DNA of 23,888 nucleotides from IMG/VR virus record IMGVR_UViG_3300043122_000217, positions 1 to 23,888 of that record. One strand, given 5' to 3'. This document shows positions 21,154 to 23,888 of this stretch, piece by piece. The position numbers were made by a program, and so were the translations under genes. Under the pieces are notes generated by a model. The model was given only the letters and a program-made list of their open reading frames with translations, ran no database searches and was not told the DNA's origin. Source of the DNA: a virus. Every line of letters starts with the position of its first letter. Within the stretch, counting starts at the first letter, position 1.

Positions 21154-21528
21154 ATGATAATTAACGAATTGAATACTGGAGAAAAAGCTGACTATTCCCT
21201 AAATGGGAATTTTTTAGTTTTGAGTGTTTTAGATAAAAGCATTGGCCTTGATTTAGAGGTAATGCAGGATGATGAAAAGAAAACTGTCGATATTTACACA
21301 AATAAAACAGGTAATCTGGTGGAAGGTATCGATAAATGGTATGTAGCAAACATAACTATTCCTGCAGCTGAATATGAAATGCAGGGCACTGGAGAAGTGG
21401 ACGAAGATGGAAAAACAGTTTACGAAAAGGTCAAAAAACCTTTTAATGTAGACGAAGTAGTGCTCGATTTATGGGCTCTACCTAATTATATTCTTAAACA
21501 AAATCAAAAAGAGGAAGTGATTAATTAA
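21154..21528 (+). CDS. Hypothetical protein preceding the variable protein
   Basis: This encodes 124 residues behind AAGGAGGTG. The fold seems beta-rich (YSLNGNFLVLSVLDKS, KTVDIYTNKTG, WYVANITIPAAEYEM) and the C-terminus is acidic with VDEVVLDLWALPNYI. It ends in a TAATG overlap with the variable protein gene. I recognise no family. Its tight coupling to the DGR target gene suggests that the two proteins work together, for example as a chaperone or tether for the receptor-binding tip. Confidence 0.62.
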   Translation: MIINELNTGEKADYSLNGNFLVLSVLDKSIGLDLEVMQDDEKKTVDIYTNKTGNLVEGIDKWYVANITIPAAEYEMQGTGEVDEDGKTVYEKVKKPFNVDEVVLDLWALPNYILKQNQKEEVIN

Positions 21529-22556
21529 TGGAACCTTTTGTATTTAGTATAAAAGATAGTTACAGAGCAGCTGTTGAAGCTCAAACCGGAGGAAGAAACA
21601 CAGTTCTATATGATGATCAGGGAAATCCTTCTGTTATGTATAGGCTGCCTAAGTTTAATTTAGATGATGTTGTAGACACCTGGCCAAACGAACCGCATCC
21701 AGCTTTCATTGTTAACGGTGTGGTTAAGGATGAAATTTTCATTTCAAAATATCAAAATATTATCAAGAACAGCCGGGCTTATTCAATCCCTAATCAGGAC
21801 CCAGCAACATCAATTAATTTTGATACAGCGAGAGCTGCATCATTTGCTAAGGGAACTGGCTGGCATCTTATGACCAATGCAGAATGGGCTGCTATTGCAC
21901 TCTGGTGCAGGAAAAATGGTTATGAGCCCAGAGGTAACAATGACTATGGTCAGGATATAAGTGCTCCGCATGAAAAAGGTGTAGAAACTTATGGTGGTGG
22001 AGACCCTTACAAAACATATAGGGTAGCAACCGGATCTGGACCTGCTTCATGGTCTCACGATGGAACTCTAGCAGGCATATTTGATTTAAATGGAAATGTT
22101 CATGAATGGGTCGATGGCTTAAAGCTAGTTGACGGTAAAATTTGGGTTCATGATGAAAATGATTTTCAGACTGGTAATGCTGCTGGAGATAATACAGGCT
22201 GGTTAGATCTCGGAGCTTATATGGATGTAGACGGCACTACATTACAGCTTGATAGTGTAATTGACAATGTAATGGACGAAGCAAGTAGCGAATATATCTC
22301 TCATATTTTTGAGAATATGACCGCTGATACTGGCTTTACAGTTCCTGAAAGACTAAAATATTTGGCTGTATTCCCGGAAGGCACAGGATATAACGGAGAT
22401 TATATTTATGTTAGAAACTACGGTGAGCGTTTGCCGGTCCGTGGTGGCAACTGGATCAACGGCTCGATAGCCGGTGTCTTTCAGTTGTACCTGCACAATG
22501 AGCGTTCGAACGCGTTCAGCGGCATTGGCTTCCGCTCCGCTTTTGTTTCTCTATAA
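21528..22556 (+). CDS. DGR variable protein, FGE-sulfatase/C-type-lectin fold tail tip
   Basis: This encodes 342 residues and probably the receptor-binding protein of the phage tail. The N-terminal 60 residues are likely an attachment domain. From about residue 65 it shows the FGE-sulfatase/CLec-type pattern: EIFISKYQN, then SFAKGTGWHLMTNAEWAAIA, then LAGIFDLNGNVHEWVDG, and at the end the RLPVRGGNW signature that opens the variable repeat. Residues 301-338 are encoded by the VR. Diversified residues (VR versus TR) include 304, 310, 314, 321, 323, 330, 331 and 332, which in this fold lie on an exposed ligand-binding face. Related TR codons are mainly AAC. The reading frame continues only 4 residues past the VR. 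It overlaps the previous gene by one base (TAATG). Confidence 0.88.
   Translation: MEPFVFSIKDSYRAAVEAQTGGRNTVLYDDQGNPSVMYRLPKFNLDDVVDTWPNEPHPAFIVNGVVKDEIFISKYQNIIKNSRAYSIPNQDPATSINFDTARAASFAKGTGWHLMTNAEWAAIALWCRKNGYEPRGNNDYGQDISAPHEKGVETYGGGDPYKTYRVATGSGPASWSHDGTLAGIFDLNGNVHEWVDGLKLVDGKIWVHDENDFQTGNAAGDNTGWLDLGAYMDVDGTTLQLDSVIDNVMDEASSEYISHIFENMTADTGFTVPERLKYLAVFPEGTGYNGDYIYVRNYGERLPVRGGNWINGSIAGVFQLYLHNERSNAFSGIGFRSAFVSL
22427..22541 (+). repeat. DGR variable repeat (VR)
   Basis: This 115-bp segment aligns without gaps to the TR at 22996-23110 (offset 569). It differs at 22437, 22456, 22468, 22488, 22494, 22512, 22515, 22516, 22519, 22521 and 22522. Ten of these eleven are A in TR; only 22512 (G here, T in TR) is not. 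The last 19 bases are identical, which is where homing starts in studied DGRs. Confidence 0.95.
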
Positions 22557-22576
22557 ATCTGAACTCTAAAATCTGT

Positions 22577-22602
22577 TAGGGGTGGGCGATAGCCTTCCCC
22601 TA
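22577..22602 (+). other. VR-proximal hairpin with GATA tetraloop
   Basis: Arms 22577-22587 and 22592-22602 form an 11-position stem with one T-T mismatch and one G-T pair, closing on the 4-nt loop GATA (22588-22591). It starts 35 bp after the VR and 20 bp after the variable-protein stop. Phage DGRs studied in Bordetella phage BPP-1 and relatives need a hairpin or cruciform with a GRNA tetraloop just downstream of VR for efficient homing; GATA fits GRNA. Confidence 0.7.
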
Positions 22603-22623
22603 CATTACTTGAAGGATGATAAT

Positions 22624-22965
22624 TTGGAAAATCTAATAGTATATCAAAAGACTTATGACATGATCCAGTATGGTTACCAGGCATTAAAACAATTCCCTCG
22701 CAGTGAAAAGCATACTTTTGCTGCAGAGATAAAAGAAGCAATGATAAAACTTTTAAAATTAATAATTATAACCAACAAAAAATATTACAAAAAGACTACA
22801 TTAAGAGAAATGGATACTCAATTAGAATTGATAACTACTTATATAAGATTAGCCAAAGATTTAGAATTTCTTCCTTTTAAAAAGTACGGCATCTGGTCTG
22901 GAAAACTTGATGAAGTAGGCAAGTTAATTGGTGGCTGGATGAAAACAATAGAAAAGCAAAATTAA
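22624..22965 (+). CDS. avd: DGR accessory protein (Avd, four-helix bundle)
   Basis: Avd binds the DGR reverse transcriptase and RNA and is needed for mutagenic homing. TTG 22624 with AAGGATGAT at 22612-22620 gives 113 residues (MENLIVYQKTYDMIQYGYQ). A longer reading from GTG 22582 is unlikely because that codon lies inside the VR hairpin. The sequence is all helical, with a basic Lys/Arg-rich helix (IIITNKKYYKKTTLREMD), TYIRLAKDLEFLPFKKYG, and a short final helix (KLDEVGKLIGGWMK), as expected for the bAvd pentamer-forming family. It lies in the canonical place between variable protein and TR. Confidence 0.85.
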   Translation: MENLIVYQKTYDMIQYGYQALKQFPRSEKHTFAAEIKEAMIKLLKLIIITNKKYYKKTTLREMDTQLELITTYIRLAKDLEFLPFKKYGIWSGKLDEVGKLIGGWMKTIEKQN

Positions 22966-22980
22966 AATTTTATAAATTTT
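22964..22980 (+). other. AT-rich palindrome between avd and TR
   Basis: AAAATTT (22964-22970) and AAATTTT (22974-22980) are perfect 7-bp arms around TAT. It overlaps the avd stop region. It could be the 5' boundary of the TR RNA or a weak promoter area (TATAAA-like), but no convincing -35 is seen. Confidence 0.35.
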
Positions 22981-22995
22981 CGGTAGTAGGCCGAT

Positions 22996-23110
22996 GCGTT
23001 TGCCGATCCGTGGTGGCAACTGGAACAACGGCTCGAAAGCCGGTGTCTTTCAGTTGAACCTGAACAATGAGCGTTCGAACTCGAACAACAACATTGGCTT
23101 CCGCTCCGCT
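22996..23110 (+). repeat. DGR template repeat (TR)
   Basis: This 115-bp copy is the donor for mutagenic homing into the VR. It has 27 adenines, 10 of which are changed in the present VR. In the VR frame it encodes nine AAC codons plus AAT and AAA, the usual design that lets adenine mutation reach many residues without stop codons. GC is about 54% by hand count, far above its flanks. An ORF across it is incidental. Confidence 0.95.
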
Positions 23111-23133
23111 CTATTTATATTTTTAGGCCAGAA

Positions 23134-23158
23134 GTTAGCAACCTACTTGGTTGTTATC
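23134..23158 (+). other. Hairpin just downstream of TR
   Basis: GTTAGCAACC (23134-23143) pairs with GGTTGTTATC (23149-23158) around a 5-nt loop (TACTT), with one T-T mismatch and one G-U pair. It starts 23 bp after the TR end. The place fits a structural element of the DGR RNA spacer. Confidence 0.55.
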
Positions 23159-23289
23159 CAGTGCCAGCAACATAAATAAAGGGGCCTACTTCCATCCTGA
23201 GAAACAAATTTGTCCCTCCAGGAAAAAATTTAAATTGTTAGTTAGGCAGCAAGTATTGAAATATAGAAAGTTGTCACGGCTGACACCCT

Positions 23290-23324
23290 AAAACCTGCTC
23301 TAAATAAGAGTGGGTTTTTCTTTT
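23290..23324 (+). terminator. Terminator-like hairpin before the reverse transcriptase
   Basis: AAAACCTGCTC (23290-23300) pairs with GAGTGGGTTTT (23308-23318) over 11 positions including two G-U pairs, with a 7-nt loop (TAAATAA), followed by T-rich sequence. It may end the TR RNA or reduce read-through into the reverse transcriptase gene. Confidence 0.5.
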
Positions 23325-23353
23325 CACCCAAATACAGAGAAAGTGGTGATAAT

Positions 23354-23888
23354 ATTCCAAAAAAATTTAGAAATTTATATCCAAAAATATACGATTTTGA
23401 GAATTTATATTTAGCTTATATAGAAGCAAGAAAGAAAAAAAGATTTAAAAATGAAGTCTTGCAGTTTACCAGGCAGTTAGAAAGCAATCTTATCCAGCTA
23501 CAGAATGAACTAATCCACAAAACTTATAAGCAAGGTAAATATCATCAGTTTTATGTTTACGAACCAAAGCAAAGACTGGTTATGGCTTTACCTTTTAGGG
23601 ACCGAGTAGTTCAATGGGCCATATATAGACAGATTTTCCCTATTTTCGACAATATATTTTATGAGCATAGTTGTGCTTGCAGAGAAAATAAAGGGACTCA
23701 TTATGCTGCAGATCAGTTAAGACACTGGATGAGAAAACTAGACAGGCAACCAGGCGAAACCTATTTTCTGAAAGCTGATGTAGCAAAATACTTTTATAGA
23801 ATAGATCATCGAGTTCTTTTTGAACTTATTAAAAGAAAGATAGATTGCAAAGATACACTAAGATTACTCTGGAGAATAATTAAAAGCG
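23354..23888 (+). CDS. DGR reverse transcriptase (3' end cut off by window)
   Basis: It copies the TR RNA into adenine-mutated cDNA. The 178 visible residues show the DGR-type N-terminus (RNLYPKIYDFENLYLAYIEA), then FYVYEPKQRLVMALPFRDRV, then HSCACRENKGTHYAAD, and LKADVAKYFYRIDH with the first catalytic Asp (residue 142). The YxDD motif lies beyond the window. The frame is open only after the TAG at 23264-23266, and no ATG, GTG or TTG occurs before the conserved N-terminus. ATT 23354, 3 bases after GGTGAT, gives IPKKFRNLYPK and matches the spacing of GTG 9801. GTG 23343 or 23346 plus a -1 slip on seven A's (23359-23365) is the alternative. Confidence 0.9.
   Translation, partial: MPKKFRNLYPKIYDFENLYLAYIEARKKKRFKNEVLQFTRQLESNLIQLQNELIHKTYKQGKYHQFYVYEPKQRLVMALPFRDRVVQWAIYRQIFPIFDNIFYEHSCACRENKGTHYAADQLRHWMRKLDRQPGETYFLKADVAKYFYRIDHRVLFELIKRKIDCKDTLRLLWRIIKS

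Follow-up and report, generated by a model that had tools for sequence, protein, structure and literature searches.

A near-cognate start codon proposed for the reverse transcriptase of a diversity-generating retroelement in a Halanaerobium phage

The reverse transcriptase (RT) of a diversity-generating retroelement (DGR) in a Halanaerobium phage appears to be translated from a near-cognate ATT codon, and near-cognate codons recur at the homologous position in other DGR lineages. We take this start and its recurrence together as a regulatory variant for which we know of no prior description, and as a moderately surprising one. The DGR itself is a further member of a well-known kind, with ordinary anatomy. 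The stretch of DNA analysed, called the window below, is the entire IMG/VR record IMGVR_UViG_3300043122_000217 (23,888 bases), the end of which falls inside the RT gene.

Results

Anatomy of the DGR and phage context

We located the DGR parts within the final 2.4 kb of the window, in the following order.

21528..22556, + strand: DGR variable protein, 342 aa, TaqVP-like C-type-lectin/FGE fold (phrog, Pfam, profile, AlphaFold2/Foldseek)
22427..22541, + strand: VR, at the 3' end of the variable-protein gene (115-nt repeat of TR)
22577..22602, + strand: target hairpin/cruciform with a GATA (GRNA) loop, downstream of VR (fold z about -3)
22621..22965, + strand: avd, with a probable weak TTG start (bAvd PF22296, phrog_3206, start comparison)
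22996..23110, + strand: TR, 115 nt (repeat comparison)
23115..23283, + strand: RT-14 structured RNA (RF02921), directly 3' of TR (63.7 bits, E 8.4e-7, above the gathering score)
23290..23327, + strand: intrinsic-terminator-like hairpin and T tract, between the TR RNA and RT (fold, conservation)
23338..23350, + strand: putative Shine-Dalgarno of RT, AGAAAGTGGTGAT (7 nt spacing to ATT)
23354..23356, + strand: proposed near-cognate RT start codon ATT (ATT/ATC in 21/21 distinct clade members)
23354..23888, + strand: DGR reverse transcriptase, of which 178 codons precede the end of the contig (phrog_1423, RVT_1)

A sequence-only reading of this DNA had given the gene order as variable protein, hairpin, Avd, TR and RT, with the RT cut at the window end; coordinates and order both hold, and the record does stop inside the RT, after 178 codons. 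Three features are additions to that reading: an RT without a canonical start, a structured RNA of the RT-14 type, and the terminator-like hairpin. Its proposal of a contractile phage is likely to be right, because the neighbouring genes encode a baseplate J protein and additional proteins of tail and baseplate, and a DUF3383 protein occupies the position at which the sheath is usually encoded. The phage had also been read as looking like a halophile-type Bacillota phage, in agreement with which Halanaerobium saccharolyticum MA284_T2 carries an RT of 99% identity. No near match to the window phage was found in the named-phage and plasmid collections, and a literature search of partial coverage found no paper joining a DGR with Halanaerobium. 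The Halanaerobium phage of the window is apparently undescribed.

The variable protein matches phrog_2889 (1.5e-132), the tail protein phrog_5302 (3.4e-17) and FGE-sulfatase (5.1e-5). When a profile of 34 of its relatives was used, PDB 5vf4 (TaqVP) was matched over the full length (E 3.2e-111). TaqVP has a C-type-lectin fold and comes from a Thermus aquaticus prophage DGR (PMC6328139). The AlphaFold2 model of the variable protein (pLDDT 91) found 5vf4 in Foldseek with E 8e-41, Mtd and TvpA being far behind; the two proteins share the fold over their full length (TM 0.92, 39-40% identity), although TaqVP belongs to another phage and another host. The VR thus lies at the C-terminus of a CLec-fold target, that is, at the 3' end of an FGE/CLec-type gene as had been read from the letters. 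From its position after the baseplate genes, its TaqVP fold and the analogy to Mtd, this protein is likely a host-attachment protein.

Downstream of the VR, the target hairpin carries its GATA loop 35 nt after the repeat, the published distance from VR to GRNA-loop hairpin being 4-34 nt (PMC3240598); the homologous hairpin in L008 has a fold z of -4.1. The accessory protein Avd is present, with matches to Pfam bAvd PF22296 (1.6e-33, 115.8 bits vs a cut-off of 40) and phrog_3206 Avd (6e-38). The RT matches phrog_1423 (1.2e-59), RVT_1 (6.6e-9) and, by profile, the RT of 8ub7 (1.8e-72). These searches support the identities that had been proposed for RT, Avd and target. A near-identical contig, L003, encodes the full RT of 370 aa with IGNLTSQ and the catalytic YxDD in the form YMDD, and other relatives too have complete RTs with YMDD, so in near-identical contigs the DGR-type RT is intact rather than disrupted downstream.

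Activity in nature

VR and TR of the window differ by 11 mismatches over 115 nt, 10 of them at TR adenines. When the VR was compared with its own TR in seven relatives with both repeats, 83 of 183 TR adenines differed vs 6 of 622 non-adenine positions (Fisher p 1.6e-53), and in the cultured H. saccharolyticum MA284_T2 all 16 VR-TR differences fall at TR adenines. The window and contig 3300036466_000336 (L038) can be aligned collinearly, without a gap, along 10,361 bp. They differ at 12 positions, every one of them inside the 115-nt VR and 9 at TR adenines, while their TRs are identical. Mutagenic retrohoming can be read from this natural variation, and the comparison of the window with its sister contig shows DGR activity in nature cleanly. 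Since the RT proved unbroken and the VR variation adenine-biased, the two points on which the earlier proposal hung, we consider the DGR to be a working one; judged by its adenine-biased VR replacement and the intact RT in near-identical contigs, it is complete and active in nature.

Two relatives deserve mention for their repeats. The TR of an H. saccharolyticum prophage (L072:5642-5757) has a C where other TRs have A, and its own VR has the same C, possibly a back-transfer from VR to TR. In L015:5518-5826, which lacks avd and the other repeat, a single repeat copy leads directly into an RT-14-like RNA and RT, and the frame of the variable protein continues into the region of that RNA; this looks like a collapse by VR x TR recombination, or an assembly collapse.

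The RT start codon in the Halanaerobium clade

We looked for ATG, GTG and TTG in frame near the RT N-terminus of the window, and none was present. The frame has an ATT directly before PKKFRNLYPKIYDFENL and 7 nt after AGAAAGTGGTG. This ATT, or ATC in relatives, is located behind a good Shine-Dalgarno (SD), exactly where other DGR RTs start. Among the 21 distinct N-termini of the Halanaerobium clade, 17 have ATT and 4 have ATC at the homologous start, and none has ATG, GTG or TTG. The first two bases of the codon are invariant and the third has changed at least three times, only between T and C; the proline codon that follows varies (CCA/CCT/CCG). Many members have an in-frame stop 2-4 codons upstream of the ATT (TGA GAT AAT ATT CCA; TGA TTA TTT ATT CCT; TAA GGA GAT GAT ATT ATC CCA), which leaves hardly another start candidate. 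In L379 and L140, an in-frame TTG/GTG lies just upstream of the RT start, abutting or overlapping the SD. Codons 2-36 of the RT show a pN/pS of about 0.33, indicating purifying selection, which argues that this N-terminus is translated. We infer that RT translation starts at ATT 23354, AUU/AUC being the codon used. An assembly error was rejected because the codon class is shared by independent contigs and by two copies in a cultured genome, that of H. saccharolyticum MA284_T2, where one clade DGR RT starts with ATT and the other with ATC (G001:C6, G001:C32).

The avd gene probably starts at TTG 22621 and not at GTG 22582, because the latter falls within the target hairpin and L008 does not preserve the GTG frame. 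The codon homologous to this TTG is ATC, ATT or ATA in several relatives. Within the Halanaerobium clade, near-cognate avd starts are ATC in L134, L136 and L138, ATT in L073 and L379, and ATA in L139; these members and L032, L359 and L339 have ATC/ATT/ATA, and none of ATG, GTG and TTG, at the homologous avd start.

Recurrence of near-cognate starts

The RT comparison took in DGRs other than those of Bacteroidota and comprised 199 distinct N-termini, eight of them not aligned DGR N-termini. For the 183 RTs full enough for the tree, the homologous start is ATG in 114, TTG in 35, GTG in 9 and near-cognate in 25. The near-cognate label needs 7 changes on this tree, all forced by well supported branches, and such RT starts are seen in about six DGR lineages besides the Halanaerobium clade: ATT in L108 and L245, ATC (or ATT) in L322, ATC in L325, ATA in L237/L238 and GTA in L319. 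In 27 of 28 near-cognate cases the codon stands 6-9 nt from the SD core. By a start-agnostic criterion, which asks that ATG, GTG and TTG all be absent from the in-frame stop up to the conserved start, 18 of 194 RT genes qualified, as did about 9 of 186 for Avd, vs none of 38 variable-protein genes and none of 116 from three neighbouring tail genes (together 0/154). Against this control the Fisher values are 2.5e-5 for RT and 0.005 for Avd, figures that are descriptive because the rows are phylogenetically related. BPP-1 and BalMu-1 have ATG start codons, and no paper joining a DGR with an AUU start was found in a literature search of partial coverage.

RNA elements between TR and RT

The window RNA right after TR matches the Rfam RT-14 RNA (RF02921) over its full length; unlike the Rfam RNA, that of most clade members here is followed by a separate terminator-like hairpin and then by RT. 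In the window this hairpin has a 12-pair stem followed by TTCTTTT (-13.4 kcal/mol), and in diverged relatives every pair is kept, with both-side changes between subclades. It lies only about 35-45 nt upstream of the RT start, and there is therefore little room for a separate promoter.

Upstream of the RT start (window 23325-23350, and most but not all relatives), a TCACC is complementary to the GGTGA of the RT SD, and in L139 and L140 the SD could instead pair with AUUCCU at the RT start. SD sequestration of RT is thus possible; convincing covariation was not seen.

Discussion

AUU and AUC belong to the rarest class of start codons and are weak; IF3 discriminates against these near-cognates, and infC itself uses AUU/AUC. 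In H. saccharolyticum (L205) and a Halanaerobiales MAG (L206), infC has none of ATG, GTG and TTG at the expected start, and the start region reads ATC after a Shine-Dalgarno, AGGAGGTG. Because infC reads AUC where a start is expected, the host lineage probably initiates at AUC. In Streptomyces, sigR has an IF3-repressed GTC start that keeps its amount below that of the anti-sigma factor (PMC5472188). Both infC and sigR have a near-cognate start behind a strong SD, as is proposed for the DGR RT; in sigR it serves stoichiometry (PMC5472188). They are, however, cellular regulators with experimental proof, whereas the RT start is proposed here from sequence comparison.

We propose that the RT-Avd complex would copy the TR RNA (TR and RT-14 RNA) into adenine-mutated cDNA, which would replace the VR of the C-type-lectin tail protein and diversify host attachment. 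Translation of the RT would begin at a near-cognate AUU, replaced by AUC in some relatives, behind its good Shine-Dalgarno, and in most members the terminator-like hairpin would end the TR RNA unit ahead of RT. RT would then be made through transcriptional read-through and inefficient, IF3-discriminated initiation, with plentiful TR RNA and Avd and very little RT as the likely net effect. Such a balance is suggested by the near-cognate start together with a terminator-like hairpin that leaves little promoter room. RT synthesis would be throttled by its start codon, with IF3 control a possibility, and low RT may be of benefit and linked to the IF3 level. We regard this explanation as a whole (an active phage DGR with a near-cognate RT start, a hairpin and low RT) as probable. 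A stronger version is that near-cognate AUU/AUC/AUA/GUA starts in RT, and in some lineages in Avd, are a selected brake that evolved repeatedly and ties the mutator dose to IF3 and the host translational state, fixed in Halanaerobium phages with a terminator between template RNA and RT; to this we give a little less than an even chance.

An ordinary phage DGR may need little RT, and its weak start could then be neutral slack, tolerated and not selected. TTG in 35 of the 183 RTs would fit such tolerance, as would ATG being predominant elsewhere (114/183). However, although ATG is a single substitution away, none of the 21 distinct sequences, which reach down to about 60% identity, has reverted to it, while neighbouring third positions turn over freely and G is present in 64% of codons; the strong SD and its exact spacing are retained, and the pattern recurs in Avd and not in structural genes. 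We hold neutral slack to be rather unlikely. The hairpin could likewise belong to the TR RNA as a structural or RNA-processing element and not be a transcription terminator, a possibility that we take seriously while doubting it: the T tract is poor or degraded in some members of the subclade of about 60% identity (TTGAATATTT) and no separate hairpin is present in L015, L139 or L140, but most members show a perfect 8-12 pair stem with the T tract directly after it.

Very improbable, in our judgement, is a canonical RT start elsewhere, be it the internal TTG 23459 or a GTG that lies upstream or out of frame and would need frameshifting. Out-of-frame GTG codons do occur within the SD, and codons 2-4 of the RT in the window include an A7 run; yet the frame and stop of these GTGs differ among members, the GTG frame of L136 stops before the RT start, the A-run is absent in L140, and in-frame stops stand immediately upstream of the ATT. 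Starting at TTG 23459 was rejected because it would delete the conserved NLYPKIYDFENL block, which is under purifying selection. The near-cognate ATT remains our preferred start for the RT.

A close parallel is the DGR of Bordetella phage BPP-1 (mtd-avd-TR-brt; L399), which is alike in its cassette order, its adenine mutagenesis, its CLec target at the phage tail and its GRNA-loop hairpin downstream of VR. Unlike the element described here, BPP-1 starts both brt and avd with ATG, its RT is about 37% identical, and Mtd resembles the window target only distantly in fold. The window DGR also agrees with the catalogue of Roux et al. 2021, in which phage DGR clades diversify attachment proteins and saline lakes are enriched (PMC8144416); start codons and Halanaerobium are not mentioned in its main text (PMC8144416).

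These results matter for how such genes are annotated and for how they may be controlled. Automatic gene callers allow only ATG, GTG and TTG starts, and because of this RT and Avd genes with near-cognate starts would be truncated or would have their starts misplaced. The means by which phages limit the amount of a dedicated mutator are, to our knowledge, not well understood. Fixed and recurrent starts of the rarest class on DGR RT and Avd point to translational dosing of targeted hypermutation.
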